Assembly: GCA_034440615.1 (NCBI GenBank)
Contig: JAOTOM010004951.1
Span: 325,501-389,500, forward strand
From: Ashinkailepas kermadecensis
Lineage: Eukaryota; Arthropoda; Thecostraca; Neolepadidae
DNA: 64,000 nt
Direction: 5' to 3'
Positions within the stretch are counted from its first letter, which is position 1. Each line of letters begins with the position of its first letter. The position numbers and the translations under genes were made by a program. The notes beneath the pieces were generated by a model. The model had not been told where the DNA came from. It saw only the letters and a program-made list of their open reading frames with translations, and searched no databases. This document shows, piece after piece, positions 9,806 to 45,134 of this stretch.

Positions 9806-9972
9806 CTGGTCTCGGGGGAAGCCGAGCTTCACGATGGCCGCCACGTCAGCCTCGGAGAACTTGTCGCCGGGCCCGAGCTGGTCGTGATCGGACTCTGCCG
9901 CCGAGCTGACAGTCGCAGAGTTGTACGCTGCTGAGTTCGATGCTGCCGAGCTGGATGCTGTCGAGCTGGCAG
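9806..9972 (-). CDS. DDI1: DDI1 exon 7 (linker and first UBA helix)
   Basis: The exon is 167 nt, phase 1 in and phase 0 out, acceptor TTGTTGCAG and donor CAG|GTAGGT. It encodes an Ala/Ser/Asn linker followed by [20 protein letters not shown]. This is the opening of a UBA domain (V-x-L-MGF-x-R-xxV). Without splicing, the frame runs only 31 further codons to a stop at 9710-9712. Confidence 0.88.
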
Positions 9973-12900
9973 CTGCAACAAGCAGATGGCCTAGCGTGCA
10001 GCGGTCGAAGAGCACGTCATAGCCGGCAGTGCGGACAACTGTGGCAGACTATAACAGGCGGACTATAACAGACAGCCTGGTAGAGGTGGGGACTGCAGAA
10101 GTCTGACGCTGAGGGTGTCGAAACAAGCGGGCTGTCGGACGAGCACACTGCAGCCGAAGCAGCCCGGAGGGAGAGAGCACCACAACAGGCATCCTGGCAG
10201 TGGAGCGGACTGCAGCCTGGCAGCGGAGCGGACTACAGCCGTCCATCTCAGCGGTAGGGAGGGAAGACCGCGGCCACAAACGTGCTGACCGACTGGGAGG
10301 AGACACTCGGGTACGGAGGAGACACTGGCCGACTGTGGGGGGGGGGGACACTGGCTGGCTGGGAGGAGACACTCGGGTACGGAGGAGACACTGGCCGACT
10401 GGGGGGGGGACACTGGCTGGCTGGGAGGAGACACTCGGGCACGGACGCTCTCCCTGCTGACCGCGCCCCGCCGGTCGGGCGTACCTGTGGCGAGCGTCGG
10501 CTCCGCGCCGTCCGTCTCCATGTCGTCCGCTTGGCTGAGGCGCGCGCAGGCAGGCAGCTCGGCCTCTGTCAGGAACGGTGTTCTTGTGCCCGTTGTGCCG
10601 ATGTACAGCACGTTCTGCCTCAGGTCGATCCGGCACTGACAACGCAACGGCCGCATACTGTTCACGTAATGGTTTCCGAACGGTGTGCAGAGTGGTTGTG
10701 CAACGAGAACACAAAGCTCCTGCAGCGGTCCAAGAACGGATTCAGAACTGGCCACACCACCACACGGCGCTCACGTACCAGTCCCTGAACGGCCTCAGCA
10801 GTGATCGTGCAATTGCCCGGTCGGAGTCACACAATGCTCACTCAATTGTCCCGGATCGGTGTCGAAGTAGCCATACGACGCACACGCAAGATGCATAGTG
10901 GTTTCATAACAGTCATATAACGCCCATATCACGGTGCAACTACTCGATATTGCTTCGTGATATCTGAGTATCCACACATTCGAGGTGCCACGTCTGGATG
11001 GCTCGAAAGCCACTTGGTGACGTTAGCAATATAACATTTGTACCGAATATCGCTTCGTATAATACAATCGGTTGTAATAATGCCTACCGATTCCAACCAG
11101 GGGAGAGCTCGACCTGGCTGCCGATTTGTCAGGTGTGAGATGCGAGCACGCACTCACCTGGTGCCGCTTCAGACTCCGGTGTGCGATGCGAACACTCACC
11201 TACATGGTGCCGTACCAGGCTTCGGTGTGCGATGCGAGCACGCACTCACCTGGTGCCGCTTCAGCATGTCGAGGCCGAGCAGCATGTCCATGGGCTGCTG
11301 CTCCAGGATCGAGAACGACGAGGTGAGGAACACCTCCTCGATCTGGATCTGGCCCATGTGCACGCGACCGATGATGCGCTGGGTGCCGACACCCTTGGCG
11401 ATGCCGCTCCAGCGCGTGTCCACCAGCCGCATGATGTGGCACCGCTCGGCACACGCCGCCGACATGATGGTCGTCTGGGCGCCTGCCGGCACGTGAAGGG
11501 TCACCATGGTCGTCTGGACACGGGTCAAGGGTCACCATGGTCATCTGGACACGGGTCAAGAGTCACCATGGTCATCTCGGCACACGCCGCAAACATAATG
11601 GTCTTCTGGGCGCCTGCCGGCGGGTCAAGGGGCATCATGGTCGTCTAGGCACGGGTATCGAGTCATGAGGGTCGTCTGGGCACGGGTCGCGGGTCATGAT
11701 GGTCGTCTTGGGCATGGCTGGAGATCCGGGGGGGGGGATGAGTTTATGAACGGGCAATCGAGAGATGGCCGGGAGAGGTCCACTTCAGCACTAGTGATTC
11801 ATGTGAGTGATAGGATCCATGAGCTATTTTTAATACTCCGTGATGCATGGGGTTGCTCACAGTGCTTATATATGTAAATGTATCACCATTGATGTGTGGT
11901 GTATACATTACACAAGTCAGAGCTATTAGTGTTGAAAGTGTATTTGATGTGTGTAAATTTGCTTTCTGTTTAAAAGAAGTTCAACGGCATTTCCTCACCT
12001 TGACAGCATTTGGCAGCTAAGAACCGGCAGAAAATCTGGAGATAAGGCGAAAAAATATCCATGAACAATGATAAAATACCCAATGTGGTGGTGGTGGTGA
12101 GGGGTGAAGAGATTTAATTTAAAGCGCAATGGAAGCTCCAATTTGGTCACACAATCTGACATGGGTGATAACCGGGTTCAAAGACTAGCCTCTACAGGTT
12201 ATTCCGTCTGCCGCACTGTGGCGTATCTCGTCCCTCACACACGCAGTTTCATCAAATCCCTCCCCCTTAAAAGCCCCGCCTCGGAAAATTATCCTGTCGG
12301 TAGCCCCAGTCCAATATAACTAATGACATTCCATTCGCTTGATCCCTTTCGATCACCTTTTAAATGTTGCCTCTCGCCTTGATTATCTGGTGATTCACAA
12401 CGCAATTGATGCACATTCGCGGATAATGGTGCTCACCTTGATTATCATTGAAAAACATTGGCGCATCAGCAAGACAAACAACACTGGCTGCGCACGCAAA
12501 CAGAGCATCTGGAAGAGGCGCCACCATGGACGTGTGAGGCCACAGTGTTTCCTCTCCATGCGGGCTGGGTAGCAGCCGACTGTGGTGTGTGGTGACCTTG
12601 GCACGGCGCCGAGTGGGCCGGCCGTGACACACGAGCTCCCCCCCCCCGTCACCCGCCACAGGACGACACAGCGACATCACGACCTTGACACGGCGCCGAC
12701 CGTGCCACACGAGCCCCCCCCCCCTCGTCACCCGCCACAGGAAGACACGACATCACGACCTTGACACGGCGCCGAGTGGGCCGGCCGTGCCACACCGAGT
12801 GTGCCGGCTCCCCCCTCCCCACCCGCCACAGGACGGCACAGTGACCGACCTCGTGAAGCTCGCGTGACGACAAGCACCTCCGGAGGGTGGTGTCGCCGGT

Positions 12901-15900
12901 AACGGCCCGCACGCCCGCATCGCACGCCTTGAAACGTTCTACCACGCCGGGCAAGGTGACAAATGGCGTCTGGAGCCACCTCGCTCACGGTCATGTTCTG
13001 ACTCGCACAACAGGCTCGGCACGGAGGCCAACAACACGTTGTCACTCGATCGATCGTCATCCACGCACCACCCCATCCCGACGTCGACCAGCTCTGCTGA
13101 GCGAGTCACGGTCGACGTCAACCGTTACCCGACTCGATGTCAATCGCTGAAACCTGACCCGACGTCAACCGCCACCTGACCCGACGTCAACCGTCACCTA
13201 ACTCGACGTCAACCGTCACCTAACTCGACGTCAACCGTCACCTAACCCCGATGTCAACAGTCACCTGACTCGACGTCAATCGCTGAAACCTGACGCGTCA
13301 ATCGTCACCTGACCCAACGTCAACCGTCACGTGACTCGACGTCAACCGTCACGTAACCTGACGTCAACTTGACCAGACGTTCTGTTCAGCATTTCGTCCA
13401 GACCTCTCTTAGTTCCCCCCCCCCCCCACACACACACCTCCCCAAGATGATGATTATTGGGGTTTTAGGGTGCGTCAACCCATGTGGGTTATATTGCACC
13501 CATAACAAACTTGCTTAGACACGCGTCAGATTGTCACGTTCCAATAAAAGATGTTATGACCATACATCAAAGCCACTATGAGCAACATCACTGCCACTAC
13601 CTATTCCGGTGCCGGACAACGTTGACCCGCTACAGCATTAATGTCACCGTGCTTGTGCCCGACATGCGGTGTGGTCGAGGCGGGTCCGAGTCCACAAGGC
13701 CGCACAAAGGTGGCCCACACAGCCGCCACAAATGCTGTACGACGGGCGCAGCAGACGCTTCCTAAAGCCCACATACGTCAGGTTTGAGCGAGGTGCAACG
13801 ATACCAGGTAGTGCACCCTTATACACACAACAGTCGGTTTGTCATGCGGAACGTGATCATTACCATCTTCACTACATTCAAAGGCAACGACCCGGAGGTG
13901 CAGTGCTGGCGAATTTCGAAGTGTTCAGCAATTCGGCCATCATACTCACCTCAACGCTGAGCACTGGTTCGTTTTTTCCACGGCATTACCCTGGTAAGCT
14001 GACGCAGTCAGAAGACATTACCAACCTGCCGTGTTCGCTAGCCACGGCCTAGATCTGGCACGAGACAACCCAGCACTGAGCCCGCATCCCTTCCGTCGCA
14101 GACGGTGACATCATCGGTGAGCAGCTGCGAGCCTGGCCTCCGACCGCTCTCACCCGAGTCGATGAAGGCCTTGACCGGGTAGCCGTTGACGGAGCAGTTG
14201 ATGTAGAGCATGACGACGGCGCCGAAGCTCTCCGGGTTGTGCTCCAGCGCCGCCTCCATGTTGGCGTCGATGTTCTTCTGCTTGATCTCCTCGGCTATGA
14301 GCCGCTGCGCTTCAGCGTCGAACGGGTCGGCGTTGAGGATGCGCGTGCGCTGCTGTTCGCGGTCGGCCCGCGCCCGCTGCTGTTCGGCCAGCACGCCGGC
14401 GAACCGCTCTGCAGAACGGAACGGCTTAGGATCACTACTGCAGTGGAGATCGAAGAGCCGCGGTGGGACAGAACGGAACGGCTCACGAACACTACTGCAG
14501 TAGATATCGAAGAGCCGCGGTGGGACAGAACAAAACGGCTCAGGAACACTAAGGCAGTGGATATCGAAGAGCCGCGGTGGGACAGAACCAGGGCGGTTCT
14601 ACTGCAGGCCAGCGTGCCACTCCCGGTCGTGCACAGGTCAGGTCAGGTCAGTCTGTTCACCGATCTGGCCTGGGCACTGTCACCGACCTAGAATTGCATA
14701 GTGCTTCATAAAACATTCTTGGTATCACGCGGCATACGAGAAGCAATAATATCCCCGTGCGGTTATTTTAGCCCGAACCCTGCGTGGAGAGGTTGGAGCG
14801 GATATGGCTACAATACATACAAGAATGTAACGTCTCATGTCGGCACGATAAGGCAAACGGATAGTGATGACAATAATTGTACCCCTTTATCTATTCAACA
14901 TTTCAGAACATTAAAAGGTGCGGATTCAGGTGCCTCACATCGTGGACACTTACGGTTATTATTCTGCTGTAGAATATCGTAGTGCTTTGCTACCATTTTC
15001 ATACATGATTGCTTAAATTGTTCCTGAAAGCCCATTCCACCACTTGTATAATCAAACTAAAAAAACAATCTTAGCGCACAGGGCTATTTGGAACGACAAA
15101 AGGGGCTTGCTTCTTCCATCTGTCAAACCCTTACCTTGGAAAAAGATGAGCTAAATTTATTAACCTAAAATTACTATTGCCCTAACCACTCATTGTTATC
15201 TAGGATAATACTTTTGGGCTTAGTGTTTAGTCTAAAATCATTGAAGGCGGATTCTGACAGCCAGAATAGGCGAATTTCGGAATATTGTGCTTCGCTAGAT
15301 TACACTTCAGTGTTATTCATAAGGCTTGCAGTTTGATATTGAGGCATATTTTACTCTTTACACATGATTCAGAAGGGACAGAGGTGGATAAAGAGGCCGG
15401 ACATGGGAAAAACATCGCGCATTTCGTCCGCGCTGGTACATTGAACTACTTATGGTCTCAGTGCCGGATACTCATATGAACATGCCTACAAAAGTTATAC
15501 ATTTTCAATGGCGGGCATGGAAACTGGGGAGAAAGAACGTTGAAAAGGCTTGTGAATGCTCCTTGAGGTTCCTTGCTTTTACGTACATTTAAGGTACGCA
15601 ACTTGACATGCACGCTCAAATTGGCGCTTTTTAACACAAACTGATCAAAATTTATCAAAATATCCTTATAAATGAGAAAATTTGATGTATTCAGACTTCG
15701 ACTTTAACGACAACGGCAAATCATCAGCTTCAACAGTTTATCCCATATTTCCAGACACTTGGACCTTGACCTGATCGGTGATCTTAACCGTCGCAAGTGT
15801 CAGCGTGTTAGAATAAGTGTTCAGTTTGCATATTATCGACATTGAAGCACGAAATCGAAGCACGTTTACGAACAGAATCCGGAGACTACAGCGAATACCG

Positions 15901-18900
15901 GGGGACCGACTGCAGCCCGACAACGACCTGCTTGACGTTACCTGGAAGGTTCACCGAAAGAGGTACATGCAAATATTCCAAGAACCTCCGAGAGGTCAAG
16001 TGTGAGGGTACATCACGTCGCTGACTGCACCTCCCCAGCTTAGAATACAAGTTGTGAGGGGCTAAATTGCCCCCACCCCTCGTCCCTCTCACTGCAAGGG
16101 GCAGGAAATTATGCGGAATTGCGAGTGCCAAACCGCTTCGCACAGCAGCACCGAACAGGCTACGGCGAACACAGCTAAATAGACGAACCACAGAAGAAGT
16201 CAGATCAAACATCCCTAATAGACGCAACCTCGAGAGGGGGGGGCAGTCTCAGGGCTTGGAAGCACTGACGGGAGACACGCTGTTCTATATGAGCTACACT
16301 TTACGAATTTGGGTGGGACAGTTCTTGACAAGGGCACTTTTTCGGCTTTTTCGGCCATGCCTGCTGACGGAGGCACAACCCGGACCAATGGTAGACGCCG
16401 AGCAACTACGTTGAAAACTAACACAGGGCGATGGCATGGTCAAGGTGGCGCGAGGCTGCCACTGGCTCTCACGTCCTGAACAGAGTTCTGACCCAACGGT
16501 CTCACCAGCGACAGGCAGGGTCCGCCACTGCCTGCTTCCAGGCGCGGCCCAACCCCGTGGCGCAGGAACGATTCTCAAGTTAGATGGGCGAGTTCGTGGG
16601 GCCTCCCAACCTCTAGCAAATGCTGGAAGCACTCGCGATTTTCCTTGTGCATCTTGCATGCGTGTAAAAAGCATTGCGAGCGCCTTGGCGACCATATGTC
16701 AATATAGTTATTCGTTCTCACCAACCCAATCACGAGAACCCTAAATGGTCCGAGTCACTAGAGTACAACTTATGGCTGACTTGTGCATGAACTTCTCGAT
16801 ATCAGACTTGGGGTTGGAGTATCTCCTTGAAGTATCTCAGTTTTCCAAGTTTGGCCCCCACATAAAAATATCAGGTGATGTCTCAGGGACACCATCCATC
16901 GTGATACCATCGTGCCAACCCCACAGGTGCACGGAGCCCCAGCACAGTGCAGTCTGACTGGCCGTGGGAGCCGGCGGGTGCCACCGACTGACCTAGGTCA
17001 CCGCTGAGCAGGGCGTCGGCCAGCCGCGGGTTGTTCTGCTTCAGCAGCGCCAGCTGATCGCGATTGGCGAGGAACATGTCGCGTATAAAGCGGGGGTCCT
17101 CCTGGTTCACGGCTGGCGTCGCCTCCGATGCACCAGCACCATCTGTGGGCAGCGCTGATGACTTCAGGTTCCAGCGGCGTCCACGAACGAACCAGAGTGA
17201 AAACTGCAGATCGAGGCTGCTGTAGGATTGCAAGTCCCTGCAGGTTGATGACAACTACGATGGGTATATCGCACAACTGCTGGACGAATGAAAGTTTCTT
17301 TGTTAATATTTTGCAGCCTTGAAGTTTAAAAAATAAACTTGCGTATAGCGCAACTTTCTAATACAACACACATCGGCAGCTTTCCCCAACATGTTTCCAA
17401 CAACTACCCTGAAATCAAAGTATCATGGCTCAGTCGGGGCAGTAGTGTTGGTCAGCGAAATGCCGGTGCTGAACAATCCAACGCCATCCAACAACTAAAC
17501 TTTCCCAGTCCAAAAGTTTACCGCGGCACTAATGATACACGATTGGTGCCATTGGAATGTCACCATGAGCGCCACCATATCCATTCACTTCACGACGCCA
17601 CAAATTTCGGACAAATTTAATCAGGTGTTGCACCAGTCCACCAAGCAGGTGGTGGTGGTTTCATGTTCGGGAACGCGCTAACCCTATGCCTCCTGCCTTA
17701 GGCACGTCTACCTACATAATTACACCCGTGCGCGACGCGCGAACCGACTGCGCTGAACTGCGCGACGCCGACCGACAGCTGCAAATGCTGCAGCCGCCGC
17801 ACTACTTAGTCATCTCGCTGGTGCGCTTCCTGTTCGAGCGTGGCACGGGCGCGCGCCGCAAGGTGCTGACACCCGTGGCGCTGACGGAGCAGCTATGGGT
17901 GCCGGTGCGCGGCCGGCCGGCCGTCCAGTTCCGGCTGTATGCGCTGGTGGTGCACCGCGGCGGCTCGCTGGACGCCGGCCACTACTACTGCGTGGCGAGG
18001 TCATCCGACGCCACCGGCCCGGACGCCGCGCCGTCCGTCTGGTGCCGCCTCGACGACAACTACGTGACACCGCTGTCGGTCGGTCACCTGGACGCCTGGG
18101 GTGGCCGCGGCGGCGCCGGCGCGCCAACCGACGCGCCCTACATGCTCTTCTACCGGCGGTGCGACGGCGACGCGGCGAGTCCGCCACAGTCGCGACACGA
18201 GCAGCTGCCGGCGTCGCTGTGGCTCGAGGTACAGAGCGACAACGGCGCGTACCGGCGCGGTAGCCGACCGGCGACCGGTGCCGGCTGGACGGTCGGTGGG
18301 CCCCGTGACGGCGACGACCGGCCGCCCCAGTCGACTGGCTGCGGCGGCGGTCAGAACGCTCCTGCGCCGAACTTCGCGTGCTGACGCGGCAGGATCGCTG
18401 CTGGGCGCGACCGCTCGCCGATTGTAATACATGGGCTGTTGTTCATATTGTTATACATCCGCATTGCAGTCATTAGACCTCATTAACATTAAGCATGCTC
18501 GATAATTAGTGTGTGTATGTACATATGTGTGTGTGTCTGTGTCGTGTACCCAACGAATACACTTATTCTTGTACTGTACATTACACCCGGTTCATCAAGC
18601 CCTGAATGGGCAAATTCCGACCGGTTGTATGGTTGGAGATTAATATGTCACCTATTTCCATAAATATAAATATATCTGGGAAAATTACATTTATTTGAAA
18701 TATGCATAAGTGTGAGATACAAGTGTGAGATACAACTAACCACAGCACATATGCTTGGTGGTTGAAATACTTTTGAAGTTTTCACTGAAAATAATTGTTA
18801 TATATGATTTCGAATTTCATATCTCCATGATTAAACACCTATGATCTAAATATACTAAGATAAAAAAACCTTCAAACTAATGGTCAGCAATGTATCACGA

Positions 18901-21307: not shown

Positions 21308-21905
21308 GGCTGTCAGCTGGGGGCACACACCGGACCGGTCACTGTGGTCTCCAACTGATAAAACCAACAGCAGCCTCACGGTCAGTCCTGTCAGCTGAGG
21401 GCAAGCACCGGACCTGTCACTGTGGTCTCCAACTGATAAAACCAACAGCAGCCTCACGGTCAGTCGCATGGCTGTCAGCTGGGGGCACACACCGGACCGG
21501 TCACTGTGGTCTCCAACTGATAAAACCAACAGCAGCCTCACGGTCAGTCCTGCCAACTGAGGGCACGCACCGGACCGGTCACTGTGGTCTCCAACTGATA
21601 AAACCAACAGCAGCCTCACGGTCAGTCGCATGACTGTCAGCTGAGGGCACGCACCGGACCGGTCACTGTGGTCTCCAACTGATAAAACCAACAGCAGCCT
21701 CACGGTCAGTCGCATGACTGTCAGCTGAGGGCACGCACCGGACCGGTCACTGTGGTCTCCAACTGATAAAACCAACAGCAGCCTCACGGTCAGTCCTGTC
21801 AGCTGAGGGCAAGCACCGGACCTGTCACTGTGGTCTCCAACTGATAAAACCAACAACAGCAGCCTCACGGTTAGTCCTGTCAACTGAGGGGACGCAACGG
21901 ACTGT
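21290..21905. repeat. 84/75-bp minisatellite including the DDI1 start codon
   Basis: About seven units of CACGGTCAGTCGCATGACTG-type sequence followed by TCAGCTGAGGGCACGCACCG and GTGGTCTCCAACTGATAAAA. Some lack 9 bp. The units with CGCAT copy the DDI1 start (ATGCGACTGACCGTGA on the transcript strand). Both unit lengths are multiples of three and no stop occurs on the minus frame from 22054 to 21149. Confidence 0.93.
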
Positions 21906-22511
21906 CTGCCGCTGCAGTCCCTGAGTAACAACACACACAGCAGTGGCAATTGGCGCATATAATCGTCAGCACGACCGGCGCTCTCCTGCTTAAGCTTTGT
22001 GTGAACTACGTTGGCGCAGTTTGTCACCTTTGCGCTCTTGGCATTCGTCGACATGATTCAGTCCACTTCCAGATAGAATGTTGTGCTGCTGCTCGTTATC
22101 CTGCATCTGCTTTGCACGCTGTTTGGCACACTTATCACACTCTTCATGTGTCAGCTTTGTGAAGTCTATTTTCAGGTTTTCTATCCCTTGTCAGTAATTT
22201 TCACAGCTGACATGCTCGTGTCTAAAAAAGCTATTCATACACCTGGCTGGCAGTGGCATCTGATGGGAAATACAACCGCTTCAGAGCATGTAAATATCGG
22301 TAATGTGGCGCATATGGCACGTGGGTTTTTCGGTTTTCCTCATTAAAACATTAGATCAATCTTATTCGGAGGGTCAGAACAGCCCTGCACGTTCTTTTCC
22401 ACAGCACGCTGGGCGTTGAAGACGTCGCGAACACATTGGCCATTGCGTGTGCTCAGACTCAGGGTCGTGCAGAAGACGCGTGCTCACGTTCGCAGCACGT
22501 CGCGTCGCAGG

Positions 22512-22660: not shown

Positions 22661-22859
22661 TCCATCCACGTCGCGTCGCCATGACGAGTCCATACCGGAG
22701 CTTTGTGTTTCGCGGGCCGTTCTCCCATATACATTCGTCGACTGCCAATGGCATTAACCTCAGCGAAGCACCCGAACCATTGCTGAAGAGCAGCATGAAT
22801 GAGGCCGTTGATGGACTTGTTCATGGTTTCCTTTCTAGAAGGTTATATCCTCGGTCGCG

Positions 22860-35600: not shown

Positions 35601-38600
35601 CGGCTCGGCGTCGGCGGCTCAGGGCCGGCCAGCCACCGCCAGTCACGTGGTTATGACGTCATGAATCACGTGACCTTCTCGCCCCGAAGTCCGGCAGTGT
35701 CAGTTCCCGATCGTCCGTCGCGTTCAAAAGTTGCATGGGCATACGCTGGATATGACTGCGAGACAAAAAGAACAGTGACACAGCGTAGCATCTCTGGCAA
35801 TCAGATAATTTGGCATAGTGCACTAAGCTTGAAGTATTGGATCGATGTTTAATGCCGAAATTGGAGGCACTGTCTATGCAATCGAATTTCCCTGCCGATC
35901 AAGGAGCAAGTATTCTAAATTTCAATGCACTACGCTGAATTGTCTGTCTGAATATATTTTAAGCTTCCTTGATTTCCTGCACTTTGCGAGAATTGAACGC
36001 ACTGAGATCCATGCATGCGCGGACTGTCCACGGAGCGTATCTGTGGTCGGCCCATAAGCTTCCTGTCGCAGTTTGATACCCAATTCTATGGCTGCAGCAA
36101 ATGAGCCTCAAACCCCGCCTCTCGCCCTCGCTCGTTCAACACCACGAATAGCACCTTATAGCGCCTGCTACTGGTACCGTTGTGCACGCCACCAGTTCAG
36201 TTGGGGGTTGATGGCGGTGGCCTCACAGCGCGGAAGAGAGGCATACGTGGGTCCCGTTGGTGACACCCACCGTCCTTGTCGATGCCGTAGCTGCCGAGCA
36301 TGGTGGCCAGGCTGTCGCGGTCGAAGTGCTTGAAGGGGCAGCCGGAGTCGTTGGCGCCGCCGCTGGCCAACACCTTGCCGCAGTGGTGAGCGCTGTACGA
36401 GGTGCGCTTGCCCTCCTGGCCGTAGTTGTGCCGGATGTTGTACAGGTACTGCTTGTGGAACTGGCCGGCACGGGACAGGCGGTGCGTCAGACTGGCGGAC
36501 GGTGCACGGAGCGGTCTGCACCACGGCCTGTCTGTTTGTTTGTATACTTATTTAGGCTAAAGAGCGCCGAAACTGCTTGGTTATTGGTTTTACGACACGT
36601 CGACCGTTGAGTCATGTAGCGTCGCCAATCTCTCACGCCGATTGGTCGCGGGCGAAGAGTAGCGACAGGTGAGACTCGAACCCACAAGCTTTCGATTGTG
36701 AGACGAGCATCTTACCCCTAGACCACTCGTCCCCATCCGAAACTGCTTCGGACGGGACACGGGCAGGCGGTGCGTCAGACTGGCGGACGGTGCACGGAGC
36801 GGTGTGCACTTCAGCCCCGGAATCCATCACACCGAAACAAAAATCGTCAAATTCGTCGACATAATTGTTTGCTGTTCAAGAGGCAAGCCAAATATTGCCT
36901 GAAACCGGAGCCGAATACAACTGCAAACACCTGGAGTTAGCCACCAACAAGAATCACTGATACAACACAAGGACACAGCAAGATTAATTGTGTGTGTGCA
37001 TCATACGGCCGCAACATTAACAGGGATTACGTGCTATAGCGGCTTCATCCAAAGCAATGAGATTGCCGGCTCTTTGACAGCATTACCGCATCCAAAGATA
37101 GTCGGGAATCACGCGTACCCGAGCAGATGAACGTCGGCATCACAGCCGTCCGGGAGCAAGCCTGGTTACTCTACCTAAACGCCACACATACTCAGAGCTT
37201 CTTCAATGAAGGGTGCCAAGCTTTCAGAGGGTGAAGATGGGCTGAAAGAATGGCTCCAAGAATGTTCTACCTAACAGGAGCCACCCAAACGGCTGGGGAG
37301 CGGAGGTTCAATGTGGTCGTGTCAGCAACCCCCGACACGGCGCAGTGAGACATTGGTGCGCTACGGGTTACCCAGAGCCGGAAAACACTTACGATCGCGA
37401 ATCCATGGTTTGCAATCAAACCTGACATTTGCATCCACGACTCTTCAGTTCATTATGATTCCTTTTTAGGCACATACCACTGCGGTCTGTCTGATCGAGG
37501 AGGCGATGTCTTTCGATTCAGTGCATGTACCTTCCTGGCTGGCCGTCATGTGACGCACGTGCCAAGACAAAGTGGGAATAACTTTAATGAAAACAGGATG
37601 TCCATAGGTTTTTAGTCTGCAGAGAGGATCCCTGAATCCATTTCATCAAATCATACAAGTACATAATGCGATACTTCGATTCTGGGAAGTGTGGAGATAG
37701 CTCGAAATCACAACACCTGCATGGCGTTGCTCATCGTCTCAATGATTTTGGTGGCCTTCGTCTTTGCCTTGCCATCTAAACTGGGTCAACGAGTCATATA
37801 CCGCTGAGCTACATTATCACTCGAGTCTTGCATCAATGGCCGGCATCGGCCACGGCGCGCCGATCTGCGTCCCCGCGGCCCGCAGCCTCCGACCCACCTT
37901 GTCGGCTTCCATGACCTTGGTGAACTCCTCGCGCCAGAAGGCGACGGCGTCGTCCAGCGAGAGGCCGATCGCCTTCAGGAACAGGCCGTATTGCATGCGG
38001 CCGGCGTGCAGCAGCTTGTGATTGGTGCGCAGCCGCTGGTGCAACTGCCGCATGCACGGCGGAAACGACTGCTTGCACAGCTGCCGCACACAAAACACGG
38101 AGCGTCAATGCACGCCGCAGGGCCGCTGCTGCGTCCTCCGGTGCAGCACGTCACTAATTTCTGGACTGTGCATTGCTTCAGGACGGCTCGGAGCTGTTGG
38201 AGACAAGAGGGTAACTGCCGTGCCTCGCGGCTCATCCTGCCGATCGACTTCGCCGACGCGGGGAGGAAACTGGCCGAATCGGCGCACTTTGTCAGAAATG
38301 AGACACATTTTGCGGATTTGAGTTTTGGAAACCCCACAGCGGGAGGTGATGAATCCTGGCCGTAGTGAGGACAATGCGTGCATAACTGAATATGGAGATA
38401 TTTGTATTCAAACCTGTGATGTTGGAATCTCAGTTTGCACTTTCCAGTGAATCGTGAGCACTTATCACGCAGCAGCTCATTGTCAAACAACGCCATTCAA
38501 CCTCAAAATGATACAAATGAGAGGATAATTTTCTGGAGAGGATAACGTTCTGGATGCAAAAAAAAGTATCGGACGGGTCGGTACAACAGCCGCGGCTCCC

Positions 38601-41600
38601 ACCTCGTCCACCGGTGGGTACCGGACGGGTCGGTACAACAGTCGCGGCTCCCACCTCGTCCACCGGCGGGTACCGGACGGGTCGGTACAACAGTCGCGGC
38701 TCCCACCTCGTCCACCATGTCGGGAGTGACGGCGTTCGCGTCTTTGTTGGCCGAGTACTGCTGGCCGGTGTAGCGCTTGTCGAAGTCGTTCAGCAGCGTC
38801 TTCAGGCGCGAGTCCTCCTCCACCACGGGCAGCAGGCGGCGGGCCATCTGACCGATCAGCACCACCGTCAAATCGCTCACCAGCAGCGGCATCTGTTACG
38901 TGTGGTGAACTGCGACAATACACCAGCAGCGGCATCTACTGCGTGTGATGGACTGCAATAATACATCAGCAGCGGCATCTGCTGCGTGTGATGGACTGCA
39001 ATAATACATCAGCAGCGGCATCTGCTGCGTGTGATGGACTGCAACAATACATCAACAGCAGCGTACAATGGCGGACCACAGAACAACAGCCACAAATGTA
39101 GCAGGCTGACAACACAGCCAGAACGGAACAAAACCTCACCCACCGCCGTAGCCATTGGCTCGTGAAGGACACCGAACACGTCTCGCACTGAACACTGACC
39201 GCTAGCGCGTGCTGCATGTGATTGCGAAACTTGGCCGCCACGATGGAGCCGAGGTCGCGGGCCGGGATGTAGGCGCGGCCGCGCTCCAGCAGTACGCGCC
39301 GGCCGCGCACCAGGTCGAGCGCCTCCACGAACGGCACCGAGTACCACTGCGTCATCTCCAGCGTGGTAGCCGTCAGCCAAGCCGTGCCGGCCAGCAGCCC
39401 CTCCCTGAGCCGCGCCCGCTCCTCGTCAGACACCTGGCGACACCCCGGCGTCACCCAATGTCACGTGGCGGTGAAGGAGACACTGGCGGGCGGACAATGC
39501 CTGGCAGCGGTCGGAATGCTCTCAACCTGAACTGAACATTAAATAATCCCTCTCGGATTGCTTGCCCATACCTAGCCTGACACCGTTCTCACACGATCCT
39601 ACGTCACGAGTGAAATCGCCCCTGAAACACTGCCACAGCCGATAGTGTTGGCGAACTTTGTCCAGGGACAGCGTATGCATGGAGGTGTCAGCCGGCCAGA
39701 GTGAGCAGTGCAAGCGCTGGCCGGAGATTTACGCCAAGTCGTCACGCTTGCCCGCGTACACTCCCGAGACACGCCGCAGGAGAAGCGTATTCTGTTGTGG
39801 ACCTTTGAGCACAGCACACCTGGAATTTACGTCAGACGACACGAACATACGCCACTGATGACTTCGAGTGTTCCCGCGACCCGACACCAAGGCGTCGATC
39901 GTCGCTTTCGCGACGCGCTCTTAATAGCGGCATTCTCACCAGTTCCAAATGGATGCCGTTGTCGACTAGGAATTTGCCGATGTTACTATCCATCGTTTTC
40001 TGCATTTGAAATCTGAAAACATATGCACGGTAAGAGGCAAGGAGGTGGGATGTAAAGAGTTGCCAGACAACCATGGTACCACAGCGGTGTGGAAGGTTTG
40101 TTTGTGCACACCGAGTAATAACTGATAAAGTAGATTTAATTATGTGGCAATTTGCAGCATCGAACACTTGACACAATCACAATAATACATAGGCGATACT
40201 GAGACAATTGGGAAAGGACGGACATAGTGCACACATGTGACTGATACCGTGGAACAAGTCAAAATTCACAGCTCCACTGTTTCGGTGTCCAGTGGAACAG
40301 TGTAAAACTCCGAAGACTCTGCTCTAAATATTCGCGGCTACACAACTGTCAAATGCTGTGCGTTCGCAGTCGGCCAGATGCAAATAGAATATACGCAGTC
40401 TGCTAGAATCATCCAGTCTGCGTAGTCTGTGTCTCAGCCATCCCGTCAAAACATGAATTGATGTGCTCCGACAAAAGCTGAGCGTGCCATGCAGCAGCTT
40501 TGGTGCTGATTCACAACCACGAGGCAAACAGTTATATACACCAGCCACTCCAGCTCACTAGTCCATACCGAATACACTGCCCACATACATACCAGCCACC
40601 CCATCCAACTAGTCCATACCGAATACACCGCCCACATACATACCAGGCATGCCTGTCCACCAGTCCATACCGAATACAATGCCACATACATACCAGCCAC
40701 GCCAGCCCATCAGTCCATACAGAATACTTCGCCCACAGCACAGCTTGACGCTGCCCTGGGAGTCGACCTGACCGGACGGGGGTCTGACCGATCAGACCCG
40801 TCTGCTCACCTCAGCCGGAACAAGTCCACCTCGTGCTGCACGAACCACGAGCGCAGCTCCTCGGTGCGGCAGTAGGCCAGTCGCAGGATGAAATGTGACA
40901 CCAGATCCCTACGCTGCGCCTCCGTCGAAGTCGTCTGGTCCTCCCGGCCAGATAGCTGCAGTGGTGCGGTCATGTGAGATGATGAGGTCAAATCACAGTG
41001 AGGTCATATGAGATGATGTCAGGTCAGGTCAGTGTGGTCATATGAGATGATGTCAGGCCACAGCATGGTCACAGCGCAGATGATGAGGTCAGGTCACAGT
41101 GAGGTCACATGAGATGACGTCAGGTCACAGTGTGGTTATATGAGAAGCCAGGTCAGGTCACAGTGTGGTCATATGAGATGAGGTCAGGTCACAGTGCGGT
41201 CACATGAGATGATGTCAGGTCACAATGCGGTCACATTAGATAATGAGGTCAGGTCACAGTGCGGTCACATGATATGATGAGGTCAGGTCACAGTGCTGTC
41301 ACATTAGATAATGAGGTCAGGTCACAGTGCAGTCACATGATATGATGAGGTCAGGTCACAGTGCTGTCACATGAAATGATGAGGTCAGGTCACAGTGCGG
41401 TCACACGAGATGACGAGGTCAGGTCACAGTGTGGTTGCATTAGATAATGAAGTCAGGTCACAGTATGGTCACATGAGATGATGAGGTCAGGTCACAGTGC
41501 TGTCACATGAGATGATGAGATAAGGTCACAGTGTGGTCATATGAGATGAGGTCAGGTCACAGTGCAGTCACATGAGATGATGAGGTCAGGTCACAGTGTG

Positions 41601-44600
41601 GTTGCATTAGATAATGAAGTCAGGTCACAGCGTGGTCACATGAGATGATGTGATGTCACAGTGTGGTCGCATTAGATAATGAGGTCAGGTCACAGTGCGG
41701 TCACATGAGATGATGTGATGTCACAGTATGGTCGCATTAGATAATGAGGTCAGGTCACAGTGCGGTCACATGAGATGATGAGGTCAGGTCAGAGTGTGGT
41801 TGCATTAGATAATGAGGTCAGGTCACAGTGCGGTCACATGAGATGATGTGATGTCACAGTGTCGTCGCATTAGATAATGAAGTCAGGTCACAGTGCGGTC
41901 ACATGCGATGATGAGGTCAGGTCGCAGTGTGGCAACAGTGCAGTTGTAACTCAAATGTCTGATGGTACATCATGCATCTTGAATGCAAGTGCATAACATG
42001 GTTCTAGGTCTGTGCACAGCCCAGCATTAATTAAAAGCCTATAAGCAGCAATTGAAGGCCATTCAGGCCAGCTGTATTTTATTATCAGGTACCCATTACT
42101 TGGTTGTACTGATATAGATATATGGAAGATGTCAACACAAATCTAAACGCCTGATCTAAGACGTAAATAATTGTCCTGTTATCCATTGTTTTCCGCCCAA
42201 ATTTCCGAATTTGGACACACTGCATGAGGTCAGGTCCCAGTGCAGCTACTGCAGACGCGGCGCTGGTCTGCGGTACTGCAGACTGCAGTTGGACCACTGC
42301 CGCGCTGGTTCAACAGTACGGTCAGCCAGCAGGGTCAACCGGTCAGCTCGGGTCGTGACCAGCGAAGCGGACAGTTGCGGGTCGGCTGGTTATTTGGGCT
42401 TAGGAGCGTGTCGACTGCGTCGGTCATCTAGCGCCCATGGCAGTTGCAAGTGAGGCCACGGCGCCATGCCAGGTCAAGTACGTTCCACCAGTTCACACCA
42501 CCACCAGTTCTAACCCCGCCGGGTCAGACTGGTCCGTAAGGTCAAACAGGCTCTGTAGGGCAGGAGTGCCAGGTCAGGTCGGGTCGGGTCGGTCGTGTTT
42601 GACTGTATAGGCTCCGTCAGCCAGATGGGATTGTTTCCATCAGGTCACGTGAGTAAGGTGAGAAAGGTCCCATCAGATGATGCCCTGACGCGTCACACAT
42701 GGCAGGCCACAGCTGATTGGTTGCGTCATGTACGGTAGGTCACGTCATGTGGGTGGGGATGGGGCGGCTCGGTTCTGTAAGACCAGGCGGACGGTGCCGG
42801 TGGGTGGCATGGTTCCCGAGCCCGCAAAGAGCCGATCACACCACATGACCACACGACACCGAGCCTCATGACGGTCCGTCAAGTGGATGCTTTGGCTGGC
42901 AATGTGTTCAAATTATCTCAGTTAGACTTCAGGATGAAACTAAAACAAATTCTTCCCGGAAGAATGTGTGATCGCGAATGGAAATGAAGCTGCATTCAAC
43001 TGATCCTGACCTCGAAACAGGCCCACACTCCGATTTCGGTGACCGTATTCCTCAGGATTTGGAAATTACACCTCAACTTGAAATTGAGGTAACTTCCTCA
43101 ACAGGAAGTCAGTGCTGATCGGCGGCCAGACCGAGTTGAGCCGGGCTGACACAGCACGGCGGTTCACACAACAGCCCCGTAACACGCCGACACTCCAACA
43201 CACGTCACACCACGCCTCGGGCCAGGCGACGCGAGGCGAGTTCCAGCCGGCTGCAAGACATGGTGACCTCAGTCGGCAGACAGCTGACCTCGGCTCAGAC
43301 CGCACCAGCGCTCACCAGATGCTCGTACGTGGACAGCTTCTGTCGCTTCAGGTCGGCCAGCACGAAGTCGGCCCACTCGCTGGAGAACTTCGGCTTGCCC
43401 AGGTGGCCGGCGCGCTCCAGCGTACGCAGCACTGTCGGCAGGTGGTGTCGGACGGCGTGAGGCCTGGTCAGGTGGCATGAGGCCTGGTCAGGTGGCATGA
43501 GGCCGGGTCAGGTGGCGTGAGGCCTGGTCAGGTGGCGTGAGGCCGGGTCAGGTGGCATGAGGCCGGGTCAGGTGGCATGAGGCCTGGTCAGGTGGCATGA
43601 GGCCGGGTCAGGTGGCATGAGGCCCGGTCAGGTGGCATGAGGCCTGGTCAGGTGGCATGAGGCCGGGTCAGGTGGCATGAGGCCGGGTCAGGTGGCATGA
43701 GGCCTGGTCAGGTGGCATGAGGCCGGGTCAGGTGGCGTGAGGCCTGGTCAGGTGGCGTGAGGCCGGGTCAGGTGGCATGAGGCCTGGTCAGGTGGCATGA
43801 GGCCTGGTCAGGTGGCATGAGGCCGGGTCAGGTGGCATGAGGCCGGGTCAGGTGGCATGAGGCCTGGTCAGGTGGCATGAGGCCGGGTCAGGTGGCATGA
43901 GGCCTGGTCAGGTGGCATGAGGCCTGGTCAGGTGGCATGAGATCTGGTCAGGTGGCGTGAGGTGGCTTCAGAGAGCGCCAGGCGGTGTCAGGCAGCAGCA
44001 CCACCGTCGCACGCCCCCGGCTGTACCCGACAAATCGGGCAGGAGCATGGCTGGAAACTAGTACCCACCGACCCCGGTCTTTTCTCGGGAAAAAATTATG
44101 CCAGTAGAAAAACACAGCTATTTACATCCCAGGTCGTTGAAGATTGATCAAACAATGTTGTTTTAAGGAAATATACTATGGGCACATGCTCAAGGCTTTC
44201 CGAGATGGAGTCTGTGCCAAACAGAAGTTGCTGGGCCACCATCAAACCCATTCACTGGCATGCATTTGAAGGGAGATGTCATGCATGTACTCATCAGGCC
44301 TCTACAATGCCCATGATCTAAGCAGACCAGCTGCCAGCTGATCCTTCCAGCAAGAGCTAAAGGTAAGTGGGTACAGCAACTCAGGCCATGCTTGCCAGCA
44401 CTGTGGGGACCAATATACATGCTGATGCCCTATGCAATGCAATGTGTTGCAACATGTGCAACACTTTATGAAACTGTTCAAGGGCAATGCAGGTATAAGC
44501 AATTTGGTTCCCCAGGAGGCTAGGACAATTTCGTTGGCTCATGTTAAATTCAGAAGATGTGAAGACAATCACCTACTGAGGAGCAATGTTTGCCAAATTT

Positions 44601-45134
44601 GATATCAAAGGAGTTCTTAACATGTCAAGATGAACTTGAAATCAGAAATGAATAAAATGCAAAATAATTGCCCAAACTGAAATTTGAACAGTTTATATTT
44701 CTGTTGAATAGCATTAATAGTTATACTAAAATTGAGTTTGATTAAACAATTATTTGTCTGGTTAGTTCATTTCTCATTCCACGTTCATCATAATAATAAT
44801 TTAACCCATTTGTTTTGCTGACAATTGAACACCCCACCCCTCAATGCAATGTCATTAAATGACTTAAAGCAACATCAATGATCAAGTTGCAGCCATGCTA
44901 TCCCACATGCAATTGTCCAGGACAAATGGGTGCATCATCTTGTCCTTGTCACCAACCTTGCAAACGCTCCACCGCCAAGCCATCAAACTCTTCCAATGAC
45001 ACATCACCAGTGGGTGGAACGAGGTACATCTGAAGAGGTTGGGTACAGTGCTCATTTGAGCCCTTCTGAGCACGAGACCGGAGGCTCTGCTGAGCAGCTG
45101 TCCATGGTGATGTCACTCCTGACTTGAAGTCCAT
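32477..45134 (-). CDS. PRIM2: PRIM2, DNA primase large subunit, complete gene of ten coding exons
   Basis: This gene encodes the large (p58) subunit of eukaryotic DNA primase, which works with PRIM1 and polymerase alpha in the nucleus to make RNA primers. Ten coding exons join in phase to 1608 nt, or 535 aa (human is about 509 aa). The order is an N-terminal domain in exons 1-5, then the 4Fe-4S C-terminal domain in exons 6-9, then an acidic tail in exon 10. All four cluster cysteines are present: C320 (in SFPPCMRQL), C399 (SAHHCGK), C413 (SGCPFKH) and C453 (QLACQKYWE). The C413-C453 spacing of 40 matches human. Other landmarks are [26 protein letters not shown] and [11 protein letters not shown]. 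Coordinates include introns. Several introns carry minisatellites that touch splice sites. No internal stop or frameshift was found, so the gene looks functional. Confidence 0.95.
33719..34375. repeat. 76-bp minisatellite including PRIM2 exon 9 donor
   Basis: Nine units at exact 76-bp spacing (CACCTACCCCTGTCGGTCTT at 33743, 33819, 33895 and onward to 34351). The last unit is the real exon 9 end. On the transcript strand every unit reads AAGACCGACAGGGGTAGGTG, so each carries a copy of the last exon codons and the GTAGGT donor. Two sub-variants (GGCCCGGTGCTGATCGC and GGTCCGGTGTCGGTCGT) alternate irregularly. Confidence 0.97.
34358..34528 (-). CDS. PRIM2: PRIM2 exon 9 (fourth Fe-S cysteine)
   Basis: The exon is 171 nt, phase 1 at both ends, acceptor TGCGACAG. 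It encodes [40 protein letters not shown] and [18 protein letters not shown]453 is the last cluster ligand. The donor GACAGGG|GTAGGT is the first of nine near-identical copies, because the downstream 76-bp minisatellite includes the exon end. Confidence 0.95.
34970..35130 (-). mobile_element. SINE with a different tRNA-like head
   Basis: The minus strand has a box A-like GCTACCTCAGTCGGTAGGTC and box B-like GGGGGTTTCAAATTGC. Its body, with ATCGGTGTGAGAGGTGGGCG and GCGCTATGCGACC, is shared with 36590-36740. The tail ATGCGTTGTAGAAGAGCCC is the same type as in the other SINEs of the window. Confidence 0.6.
35642..35674. promoter_or_regulatory. Palindromic E-box / CRE / E-box cluster
   Basis: GTCACGTG (35642-35649), TGACGTCA (35654-35661) and CACGTGAC (35667-35674) lie in one nearly symmetrical 33-bp block inside PRIM2 intron 8. 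CACGTG is the bHLH-Zip (USF/MYC type) site and TGACGTCA the CREB/ATF site. The surrounding 150 bp is GC-rich. Function is inferred only from motifs. Confidence 0.4.
36271..36460 (-). CDS. PRIM2: PRIM2 exon 8 (second and third Fe-S cysteines)
   Basis: The exon is 190 nt, phase 0 in and phase 1 out, acceptor CCGGCCAG and donor GTGGGT. It encodes [20 protein letters not shown], then [13 protein letters not shown], then [20 protein letters not shown]399 and C413 are 14 residues apart, compared with 17 in human. The loop between them is three residues shorter. Confidence 0.97.
36590..36735 (-). mobile_element. SINE with tRNA-Val-like head
   Basis: The minus strand carries GAGTGGTCTAGGGGTAAGAT, CTCACAATCGAAAGC and GTGGGTTCGAGTCTCACC, resembling tRNA-Val. 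The acceptor and anticodon stems do not pair properly. It continues into CGGCGTGAGAGATTGGCGAC and a CGTGTCGTAAAACCAATAAC tail, as in a SINE. It lies in PRIM2 intron 7, about 130 nt from exon 8. Confidence 0.6.
37898..38080 (-). CDS. PRIM2: PRIM2 exon 7 (first Fe-S cysteine)
   Basis: The exon is 183 nt, phase 0 at both ends, acceptor TGCGGCAG and donor GTGGGT. It encodes [37 protein letters not shown] and [16 protein letters not shown]320 in FPPC corresponds to the first cluster cysteine of the family. Confidence 0.97.
38566..38712. repeat. 52-bp tandem repeat including PRIM2 exon 6 donor
   Basis: GGCTCCCACCTCGTCCACC recurs at exact 52-bp spacing (CCCACC at 38598, 38650, 38702). The last is the real junction. 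Each unit on the transcript strand keeps GTGGACGAG|GTGGGA. Confidence 0.95.
38707..38892 (-). CDS. PRIM2: PRIM2 exon 6
   Basis: The exon is 186 nt, phase 0 at both ends. It encodes [37 protein letters not shown] and the conserved YTGQQYS block. The donor used here is GACGAG|GTGGGA and the acceptor is GTAACAG|ATGCCG. Both edges are duplicated in flanking tandem arrays (43-bp units upstream, 52-bp units downstream), so other copies of the same splice sites could be used. Confidence 0.9.
38881..39053. repeat. 43-bp tandem repeat including PRIM2 exon 6 acceptor
   Basis: CAGCAGCGGCATCT recurs at 38881, 38924, 38967 and 39010, exactly 43 bp apart. On the transcript strand each unit ends in CAG or TAG followed by ATGCCGCTGCTG, the first codons of exon 6. 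There are thus four candidate acceptors. Confidence 0.95.
39200..39433 (-). CDS. PRIM2: PRIM2 exon 5
   Basis: The exon is 234 nt, phase 0 at both ends, acceptor GTCGCCAG and donor GTCAGT (C at +3). It encodes [16 protein letters not shown], then [20 protein letters not shown], then [20 protein letters not shown]. This matches the family's PF-ALDLxRGRKVxLxxGxAYVP region in order. Confidence 0.95.
39940..40012 (-). CDS. PRIM2: PRIM2 exon 4
   Basis: A short 73-nt exon, phase 2 in and phase 0 out, with acceptor GTTTTCAG and donor GTGAGA. It completes the Arg codon split with exon 3 and encodes [20 protein letters not shown] then HLEL. This is the less conserved linker preceding the SDEE segment in the family. 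It is identified by phase, position and flanking exons more than by sequence. Confidence 0.85.
40530..40745. repeat. 51-bp tandem repeat
   Basis: Four units of CAGTCCATACCGAATACACC plus GCCCACATACATACCAGCC in PRIM2 intron 3, starting about 65 nt from the exon 3 donor. Confidence 0.9.
40810..40955 (-). CDS. PRIM2: PRIM2 exon 3
   Basis: The exon is 146 nt, phase 0 in and phase 2 out, acceptor CACTGCAG and donor GTGAGC. It contains the highly conserved [20 protein letters not shown] and [13 protein letters not shown] blocks of the primase large subunit. The 34-bp AGGTCA-rich array begins almost at the acceptor on the upstream side. Confidence 0.95.
40965..41945. repeat. 34-bp AGGTCA-rich minisatellite abutting PRIM2 exon 3 acceptor
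   Basis: Nearly 1 kb of units GGTCAGGTCACAGTGCGGTC plus ACATGAGATGATGA, with a second type carrying GCATTAGATAATGA. The array reaches to within about 10 nt of the exon 3 acceptor, whose flanking bases (GTGCGGTCATGTGAGATGAT) are themselves a unit. Confidence 0.95.
42383..42442 (-). mobile_element. SINE 3' end piece
   Basis: GGCTGGTTATTTGGGCTTAG, GAGCGTGTCGACTGCG and CATCTAGCGCCCATGG on the plus strand match the same tail module. It lies inside PRIM2 intron 2. Confidence 0.55.
43316..43431 (-). CDS. PRIM2: PRIM2 exon 2
   Basis: The exon is 116 nt, enters in phase 1 after CCGACAG and leaves in phase 0 before GTGAGC. It encodes [20 protein letters not shown] followed by [19 protein letters not shown]. 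This occupies the place of the human segment between LAIDRVKLL and the LRKLKF helix. A 20-bp minisatellite starts only about 25 nt upstream of the acceptor, leaving little room for a normal polypyrimidine tract. Confidence 0.88.
43455..43965. repeat. 20-bp minisatellite next to PRIM2 exon 2 acceptor
   Basis: About 25 units of GGCCTGGTCAGGTGGCATGA with single-base variants (CTGG/CGGG, CATGA/CGTGA). The array starts about 25 nt from the exon 2 acceptor. Confidence 0.97.
44957..45134 (-). CDS. PRIM2: PRIM2 exon 1 (first coding exon)
   Basis: The exon is 178 nt, begins at ATG 45134 and ends in phase 1 before donor GTTGGT. It encodes [11 protein letters not shown] at the start and [20 protein letters not shown] near the end. 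This matches the primase large-subunit N-terminus (the LQFYLxPP, SLxEFxxLAIDR region). A TTTCAG lies 6 nt upstream of the ATG, so the exon probably begins at 45140 after a 5' UTR intron. The donor is weak (T at +3). Confidence 0.88.

Follow-up and report, generated by a model that had tools for sequence, protein, structure and literature searches.

Minisatellites crossing predicted exon-intron boundaries in four genes of Ashinkailepas kermadecensis

Introduction

Minisatellites whose units straddle exon-intron boundaries have been described as "mirages" in amphioxus, in the globin genes BflGb6 and BflGb9 and in PGBD5, with Adh3 and TnC cited in the same reports (PMC3087553, PMC3902484). In these accounts the units cross the boundary at donors and acceptors, AG or GT is found in many copies, and unit length varies by gene between 10 and 160 bp. 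Regular splicing is reported together with length instability (PMC3087553, PMC3902484), and the mirages seem not to disturb splicing (PMC3087553). Minisatellites likewise lie at boundaries in human segmental duplications, as internal tandem repeats (PMC2812944), and the tandem repeats of human UBC present a row of equivalent, dual-specific AGGT splice sites (PMC10809524). Intron gain as reported for potato also shares tandem duplication involving splice signals, with the duplicated stretch giving both ends of the new intron (PMC4974935).

Here, we describe arrays in Ashinkailepas kermadecensis that share several properties of amphioxus mirages: minisatellite-sized units that differ in length between genes, cross predicted boundaries at donors and acceptors, and carry AG or GT in their copies. 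A reading of the sequence alone had drawn this likeness, correctly as judged from the amphioxus reports (PMC3087553, PMC3902484). Junction-copying tandem repeats, of which a few cases are known from amphioxus, look common here; whereas the amphioxus accounts proceed gene by gene, the present data cover four genes, in which 15 of 75 boundaries are spanned, and include what chance would give, a bias to GC-rich DNA and a junction with as many as 32 copies. The human segmental-duplication repeats are described in recent primate duplicates with altered exon-intron structure (PMC2812944), whereas the genes studied here are conserved housekeeping genes in which the protein frame is kept. In UBC, the unit is coding and whole units are spliced out (PMC10809524), whereas the extra copies here are intronic.

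Experimental Procedures

The window analyzed is a 64,000-nucleotide stretch of contig JAOTOM010004951.1, part of a 908-Mb assembly (GCA_034440615.1). Exon models in the window were built from translation, reading-frame continuity, GT/AG, Pfam and PDB relatives, and for PRIM2 additionally from spliced alignment with the human protein. The last exon of PRIM2 was placed by frame and GT/AG only, and that of DDI1 was read by eye on the basis of frame and a sub-threshold UBA match. Boundaries in all four genes are predictions from homology, frame and GT/AG, not RNA-derived. Pfam scans of most of the remaining window (except the plus strand at 22000-31900) gave nothing useful besides one SAP-domain match, and a viral-contig search using two DDI1 exons gave nothing useful.

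Tandem repeats in the window were called with TRF, and the main tests drop rows with a score below 100 or a period below 10; further cut-offs were applied in one additional placement test. Arrays outside counted introns were left uncounted, including that at the DDI1 start codon and two upstream of VARS2 exon 1. A coding-segment search of the sampled stretches yielded VARS2 and a piece of CEP192 (L022) and no further usable gene; CEP192 was left uncounted, lacking a reference protein, and locus L041 gave no reliable exon. VARS1 was covered as two pieces, the first 5,929 of 7,430 bp and a further 3,141 bp. Predicted exons were dropped in VARS2 (13821-13934, within an array, and 26788-26796, of 9 nt) and in VARS1 (6807-6964, 7243-7286 and, in L042, 2992-3042). 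The VARS2 exon edges 13953 and 12503 were taken from a single-stretch run, replacing 13967 and 12477, and two VARS1 exon starts were shifted to fit AG (219 to 220 and 1498 to 1501).

Results

The window contains two multi-exon genes, PRIM2 and a DDI1/DDI2-type protease gene, here called DDI1 (Table 1). Five of their splice junctions lie inside tandem arrays, namely two donors in PRIM2 and two donors and one acceptor in DDI1. The junction itself is present in nine copies at the PRIM2 exon 9 donor, in three each at the PRIM2 exon 6 and DDI1 exon 5 donors, and in two each at the DDI1 exon 5 acceptor and exon 2 donor. An array likewise covers DDI1 exon 1 on its start-codon side, an edge not counted as a splice junction, with the ATG kept in four of seven copies and one upstream copy identical to the real one across 56 nt. 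Among the multiplied junctions, the PRIM2 exon 6 donor is backed by the human-guided alignment, and both edges of DDI1 exon 5 fall within the protease domain, for which relatives of known structure are available. The PRIM2 exon 9 and DDI1 exon 2 donors lie in unconserved stretches and were placed only by GT/AG and an uninterrupted frame; the human PRIM2 alignment ends 16 nt short of the former.

Table 1. Predicted exons and tandem arrays in the window (positions are those of the window)
Feature	Position	Strand	Unit (bp)	Copies	Relation to gene	Basis
PRIM2 (DNA primase large subunit) coding region	32477..45134	minus			10 coding exons	
PRIM2 exons 1-5	45134-44957, 43431-43316, 40955-40810 (alternative start 40934), 40012-39940, 39433-39200	minus				
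PRIM2 exons 6-10	38847-38707, 38080-37898, 36460-36271, 34528-34358, 32607-32477	minus				
DDI1/DDI2-type retroviral-like aspartic protease gene	2768..21307	minus			8 coding exons	
DDI1 exons 1-4	21307-21215, 20680-20533, 17142-16993, 14408-14154	minus				
DDI1 exons 5-8	11482-11250, 10635-10485, 9972-9806, 2857-2768	minus				
Array	33712..34376	minus	76	8.8	spans PRIM2 exon 9 donor (34358)	TRF + exon model
Array	38566..38716	minus	52	2.9	spans PRIM2 exon 6 donor (38707)	TRF + exon model
Array	11132..11264	minus	46	2.9	spans DDI1 exon 5 donor (11250)	TRF + exon model
Array	11445..11708	minus	131 (31-bp sub-repeats)	1.9	spans DDI1 exon 5 acceptor (11482)	
Array	20321..20548	minus	108	2.1	spans DDI1 exon 2 donor (20533)	TRF + exon model
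Array	21292..21943	minus	84/78	7	takes in DDI1 start codon and first coding nt	
Array	38881..39059	minus	43	4.2	lies 33 bp short of the PRIM2 exon 6 acceptor favored by homology (38847)	
Array	40964..41929	minus	34	29	stops 8 bp short of PRIM2 exon 3 (29 bp if the aligner's acceptor is used)	
Array	43454..43962	minus	20	25.5	22 bp short of PRIM2 exon 2 acceptor (43431)	
Array	40540..40727	minus	51	3.7	82 bp into PRIM2 intron 3	
Array	14412..14588	minus	57	3.1	stops 3 bp short of DDI1 exon 4 (14408)	
Array	10293..10445	minus	62	2.4	39 bp past DDI1 exon 6 donor (10485)	
Two arrays	12617..13368	minus	76 (12617-12775); 22 (13112-13368)		mid-intron, DDI1 intron 4, distant from splice sites	
Array	18949..19111	minus	38	4.3	mid-intron, DDI1 intron 2	

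The sequence-only reading had named the same five junctions and the start-codon side, and here it stands; it had also listed the PRIM2 exon 6 acceptor as array-borne, which would put that site within the 43-bp array, and this was rejected. The units of that array contain an acceptor-like CAG/ATGCCGCTGCTG, and its use would add 15 amino acids absent from the human protein. Leaving these out raises the PRIM2 Pfam score from 254.7 to 266.3 bits, and the human-guided aligner likewise selects 38847, so the array stops short of the acceptor. Arrays close to, not across, a boundary were found where described, beside DDI1 exons 4 and 6 and PRIM2 exons 2 and 3 (Table 1). The description of arrays lying "systematically" on junctions is too strong, as no array spans 27 of the 32 PRIM2 and DDI1 boundaries.

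VARS2 and part of VARS1, examined after the window, show the same excess, a look further afield having been proposed in the earlier reading: 10 of their 19 arrays span a junction, with six junctions in VARS2 and four in VARS1 adding to the five in the window. The VARS1 junctions have 3, 3, 32 and 4 copies, the 32 being copies of an acceptor. Across the window, VARS2 and VARS1, junction-spanning units measure ~19-173 bp by TRF, where the value of 173 bp (VARS2 13362-14093) is a higher-order period above units of 80/93 bp. The arrays extend ~6-141 nt into the exon (38 nt at the DDI1 exon 5 acceptor), and their host introns are ~0.5-3.4 kb long where both ends are seen.

In recognizable copies the splice dinucleotides are kept: AG or GT is retained in 56 of 59 fuzzy-matched copies at 11 junctions, a figure that counts in the real sites and overstates preservation, since badly broken copies escape the match. 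At least two were missed in this way, the middle copy at VARS2 25658 and the third copy at the DDI1 exon 2 donor, where two copies precede the broken one. The PRIM2 exon 9 donor is represented by nine identical donor 9-mers at 76-bp steps, and at PRIM2 exons 6 and 9 the donor score of the copies equals that of the real donor. As to a possible homogenization of copies that leaves out the one at the boundary, one base is common to the eight intronic copies at exon 9 and different in the exon copy. Special conservation of the splice site in the exon 9 copies was considered and rejected, the invariant run of 26 columns not being significant (permutation P = 0.11); columns 9-39 reach a nominal P of 0.04 as one of three windows tried.

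In 20 sampled stretches totaling 195 kb, minisatellites make up 15.3% of the sequence, at 3.95 arrays per 10 kb, and the arrays are therefore not particular to PRIM2 and DDI1. They are strongly biased to GC-rich DNA, their frequency relative to background rising from 0.18 below 40% GC to 4.2 above 70% GC, and exon edges are GC-rich. Donor-like motifs are not enriched in 73 sampled arrays (19 versus 19.2 expected). Among 17 units, three of 136 pairs exceed the shuffled 99th percentile against ~1.4 expected, and the best pair barely exceeds the shuffled maximum. The units are mostly unrelated, and a single mobile or spreading repeat with related units elsewhere was not found among them, in agreement with the claim made from the sequence alone. 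The accompanying claim of one process acting on junctions as such was not supported, given this abundance, the GC bias, the sampled motifs and the 60 of 75 boundaries that are not spanned; one of the junctions it named, the PRIM2 exon 6 acceptor, also lies outside its array.

Whether arrays lie closer to splice sites than chance depends on the measure. By placement in the window, 10 of 15 arrays lie within 50 bp of a boundary versus 2.2-3.0 expected (10 of 17 versus 1.9 with a 16th intron and merging), which bears out the closeness originally suggested; by coverage, spanning shows no excess, since on rotation of the repeat mask 5 of 32 boundaries fall inside repeats versus 5.7 expected (P = 0.74). 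The same rotation places a repeat within 50 bp of 12 of 32 boundaries versus 6.9 expected (P = 0.009). Because the rotation lets arrays cover exons, which the real arrays do not, its expectation is inflated. Under a founder-unit null, devised once the window and VARS2 arrays were already known, 15 of 36 arrays in the four genes span a boundary, versus 3.1 expected for uniform founding units and 5.4 with GC weighting (P ~4e-5). For VARS2 and VARS1 alone the 10 spanning arrays compare with 2.2 and 3.6, respectively (P = 5e-4). Gene by gene, the GC-weighted excess is weak to moderate (P = 0.18 for PRIM2, 0.06 for DDI1, 0.007 for VARS2 and 0.03 for VARS1). In three genes, non-straddling arrays within 50 bp number 6 versus 6.0 expected (null means of 7.8 minus 1.8), and the excess thus sits in the straddlers.

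It is unlikely that there is no special excess at all, with GC-rich edges hit by chance in sequence that is ~15% minisatellite and the hits then noticed by the reader. The coverage result, the donor-motif count and the rise in expectation from 3.1 to 5.4 on GC weighting, after which neither PRIM2 nor DDI1 falls below P = 0.05, all agree with such a reading, but the four-gene excess and its recurrence in the two later-examined genes do not, and the rotation result leans on the inflated null.

Discussion

We consider it probable, at roughly 60%, that the arrays are mirage-type minisatellites arising from intense, genome-wide, GC-biased tandem duplication of short units (~20-170 bp), and that those straddling a junction survive. 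If the first unit to be duplicated lies across an exon edge, subsequent copies would accumulate on the intron side and give a row of near-identical splice sites, with the exon-side copy presumably still joined to the exon. Growth may proceed by unequal exchange or replication slippage. Duplications wholly within exons would alter the protein and be lost, so that the straddlers may be the visible remnant of exon-derived duplications; on this reading they survive because the exon-side site alone is needed. GC-rich exon edges and selection could together explain most of the excess. Part of it (15 versus 5.4 with GC weighting) is left over by this explanation.

The leftover, ~2.8-fold among straddlers, is what would be expected if duplication started preferentially at exon edges beyond base composition, for example through transcription- or splicing-coupled breaks or stalled forks, and the absence of an excess among non-straddling arrays beside exons fits this as well. 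We nevertheless regard such junction- or exon-linked mutation as doubtful: the process itself has left no direct sign, the sampled arrays are without donor-motif bias, and selection against wholly exonic arrays, or features other than GC, could mimic the pattern. The broadest form of the idea, in which exon edges are favored birth sites of tandem duplications beyond base composition, about one-fifth of junctions genome-wide are multiplied into up to 32 sites, and a transcription- or splicing-linked process helps to start them, can be put forward only tentatively, with the odds against it.

For the amphioxus globins it has been suggested that new introns could arise by way of mirages (PMC3087553), and tandem duplication is the reported origin in the potato case (PMC4974935). 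That the arrays here record intron gain of this kind is nevertheless highly improbable: among the fully seen introns of the four genes, none is flanked at its two ends by one and the same array or has both ends derived from one unit, as intron gain by tandem duplication (Rogers) entails, and the reach of the arrays into the exon (~6-141 nt) compares with intron lengths of ~0.5-3.4 kb. Misassembly over short repeats could also add copies, and the two amphioxus sequence versions in the PGBD5 paper do differ in copy number (PMC3902484). We judge this very unlikely here, as the copies differ by substitutions and form sub-types, the same picture recurs on three contigs, and the PRIM2 exon 5-6 stretch has a single match in the assembly. 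With that single match, one allele only is available for length comparison.

If about one-fifth of junctions have tandem copies of their own site, the genome would form a natural experiment on splice-site choice among identical sites differing by position. It would also bear on how introns grow and are gained, and on errors of gene prediction, the spliced aligner having itself chosen decoy copies in VARS2, and a curiosity of a few amphioxus genes would become a measurable genome-wide process. Should exon edges in addition be favored, the genes would be natural tests of how one among many identical splice sites is chosen.

A preponderance of donors in the window (four, versus one acceptor) was considered as an asymmetry and rejected, as all genes together have nine acceptors and six donors.

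Gene models and features of the window

Two genes were found in the window, both on the minus strand: PRIM2, encoding the DNA primase large subunit, and a DDI1/DDI2-type aspartic protease gene (DDI1), the product of which has ubiquitin-like, HDD, and protease domains. The first PRIM2 model had its best PDB chain match at E 5e-111 and the final model a Pfam match at E 3.6e-79. Splice positions were set from frame continuity and GT/AG, and in PRIM2 additionally from spliced alignment to the human protein, which reaches over exons 1–9, ends 16 nt short of the exon 9 donor and agrees on the internal boundaries except the start of exon 3 (40934, compared with 40955 in the model). The last exon of DDI1 (2857–2768) was picked out by eye, with a UBA match that falls below threshold. 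Some of the reference sequences used in the analysis were entered by hand. GC3 is 0.84–0.86 in both genes, and this and the G+C content of stretches sampled elsewhere in the assembly (0.40–0.59) seem high compared with amphioxus.

Features of the window and junctions spanned by arrays in four genes. Coordinates are those of the window, except for VARS2 (in C4659:890001–920000, on the contig labeled C4659) and VARS1 (in its pieces).
Feature	Location	Strand	Detail
PRIM2	45134–32477	−	Ten coding exons
DDI1	21307–2768	−	Eight coding exons
PRIM2 exon 9 donor			8 extra junction-spanning copies
PRIM2 exon 6 donor			2 extra junction-spanning copies
DDI1 exon 5 donor			2 extra junction-spanning copies
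DDI1 exon 2 donor			1 extra junction-spanning copy
DDI1 exon 5 acceptor			1 extra junction-spanning copy
DDI1 start-codon array	21292–21943	−	6 extra copies; units 84 and 78 bp
VARS2 spanned acceptors	10126, 13953, 17843, 24264, 29472
VARS2 spanned donor	25658
VARS1 acceptor	220		3 copies across junction
VARS1 acceptor	2490		3 copies across junction
VARS1 acceptor	5810		32 copies across junction, 1.86 kb
VARS1 donor	L042, one of its pieces		4 copies across junction
UCH (ubiquitin-specific protease) segment	17569–18384	+	Pfam E 1.3e-15; opposite strand within DDI1 intron 2
USP-like stretch, weak	~8950–9250	−	UCH E 0.007; DDI1 intron 7; apparent frame change; possibly a gene fragment
tRNA-like match (Rfam RF00005)	36667–36727	−	PRIM2 intron 7; resembles a SINE head
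31-nt copy of sequence immediately 5′ of PRIM2 exon 8 acceptor	36788–36758		Beyond the tRNA-like match
SAP-domain match	~57590–57680	−	E 1.5e-5; possible further gene or mobile element

Arrays at splice junctions of PRIM2 and DDI1

The window holds 63 TRF rows. When 70 nt of each junction's own sequence was searched in the adjoining intron, extra junction-spanning copies were recovered at five splice sites, two of which (PRIM2 exon 9 donor and DDI1 exon 2 donor) lie in unconserved stretches and are set by frame continuity and GT/AG. All five had been named in the sequence-only reading, as had the array at the start-codon side of DDI1 exon 1, which was likewise recovered. The array also claimed for the PRIM2 exon 6 acceptor falls short of that acceptor, placed at 38847 by the human-protein alignment. 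The further arrays said to begin within about 2–65 nt of a boundary do lie close to one, at measured distances of 3–39 bp. The two unit lengths of the start-codon array are multiples of three and the array stays in one 302-codon open frame (21149–22057) together with the ATG, so that it is conceivable that it encodes an N-terminal repeat extension of DDI1.

Whether the association exceeds chance depends on the question asked. Against random placement in introns, 10 of 15 window arrays lie within 50 bp of a boundary, where 2–3 are expected, and this excess holds across score cut-offs and for each gene alone (P ~0.001 each). When the repeat mask was rotated relative to the exons, 12 boundaries had a repeat within 50 bp (expected 6.9), but 5 of 32 boundaries lay inside repeats (expected 5.7), which is no excess. 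The rotation null permits arrays over exons, which observed arrays do not cover.

VARS2 and VARS1

The look beyond the window called for by the sequence-only reading showed that such arrays recur. Part of VARS2 lies in one sampled stretch, where it was spotted through codon-biased segments and identified by protein sequence; in the human-guided alignment with flanks, 365 of 708 aligned residues are identical, decoy exons counted in. Fifteen exons were used, after removal of two predicted exons and resetting of two edges to 13953 and 12503; of the 12 arrays lying between these exons, 6 cross a junction. A search with VARS2 located VARS1 on another contig, and 4 of the 7 arrays in its pieces span a junction. 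CEP192-like exons (C4687:300001–310000; Pfam Cep192_D8 E 1.5e-7, slightly below cut-off), before whose apparent acceptor a 111-bp array of 8 copies ends by ~4 bp, were left out of the counts as there was no reference protein.

Founder-unit test

A more apt null for the question places a founder unit of observed length anywhere in the gene except wholly within an exon, with copies extending into the intron. Over the four genes (75 boundaries, VARS1 in part), 15 of 36 arrays span a junction, compared with 3.1 expected under uniform founding and 5.4 under GC-weighted founding (P 4e-5). Base composition therefore accounts for only part of the excess, and the residual after GC weighting is a factor of ~2.8. 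Single-gene GC-weighted values are weak to moderate: PRIM2 2/6 (P 0.18), DDI1 3/11 (P 0.06), VARS2 6/12 (P 0.007), and VARS1 4/7 (P 0.03). VARS2 and VARS1 together have 10 of 19 spanning (2.2 expected uniform; 3.6 GC-weighted, P 5e-4). Because the null was designed after the window and VARS2 had been inspected, VARS1 alone is unaffected by that choice, and there 0.95 is expected under uniform (P 0.006) and 1.6 under GC-weighted founding. Non-spanning arrays within 50 bp of a boundary number 6 in PRIM2, DDI1, and VARS2, against 6.0 from the difference of null means.

Copied splice sites and comparison with amphioxus

The splice-site copies stand in rows on the intron side of the junctions and fall into sub-types, showing repeated copying. 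AG or GT is kept in 56 of 59 recognizable copies at 11 junctions, a match that misses badly broken copies. By a textbook weight matrix, copied donors of PRIM2 exons 6 and 9 score equal to the real ones, those of DDI1 exon 5 score 11.0 and 12.5 (real, 12.5) and that of DDI1 exon 2 scores 4.5 (real, 6.0); strength alone consequently cannot distinguish most of them. The exon-side site would be the one actually spliced, selection would purge duplications lying inside exons, and frequent founding at exon edges may account for the remaining junction excess.

The link drawn earlier to amphioxus was borne out, in that the window and VARS arrays match, in the testable features, the amphioxus minisatellites called mirages, as described in excerpts of PMC3087553 and PMC3902484. 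The same excerpts suggest regular splicing across such arrays, report haplotype-dependent copy number and cite older Adh work. In the excerpts of open-licence literature searched, mirages are named for amphioxus only. Excerpts of a paper on earthworm metallothionein (PMC12783039) and of one on a barnacle genome (PMC8270832) contribute nothing decisive.

Arrays in the rest of the genome

The assembly (907.7 Mb, 4689 contigs) was sampled in twenty 10-kb stretches at round coordinates, non-randomly, on contigs chosen because the 20-bp array of the window has a match on each. Within the 195 kb sampled, 77 arrays occupy 15.3% of the bases; within the window, repeats make up 13.4% of the gene part and 0.9% of the 45.5–64 kb part. 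Donor-like motifs are not enriched in 73 independent sampled arrays of period at least 20 (score at least 6: 19, against 19.2 GC-matched; at 7/8/9: 9/4/4, against 12.7/6.2/3.4). With the VARS2 stretch left out, array-unit frequency relative to background rises from 0.18 below 40% GC to 4.2 above 70% GC. Minisatellites are almost absent from positions 45500–64000 of the window, where array density is 0.54 per 10 kb, compared with 4.7 per 10 kb over the gene part. Tandem array sequence fills 62% of one sampled 10-kb stretch (C4590:300001–310000).
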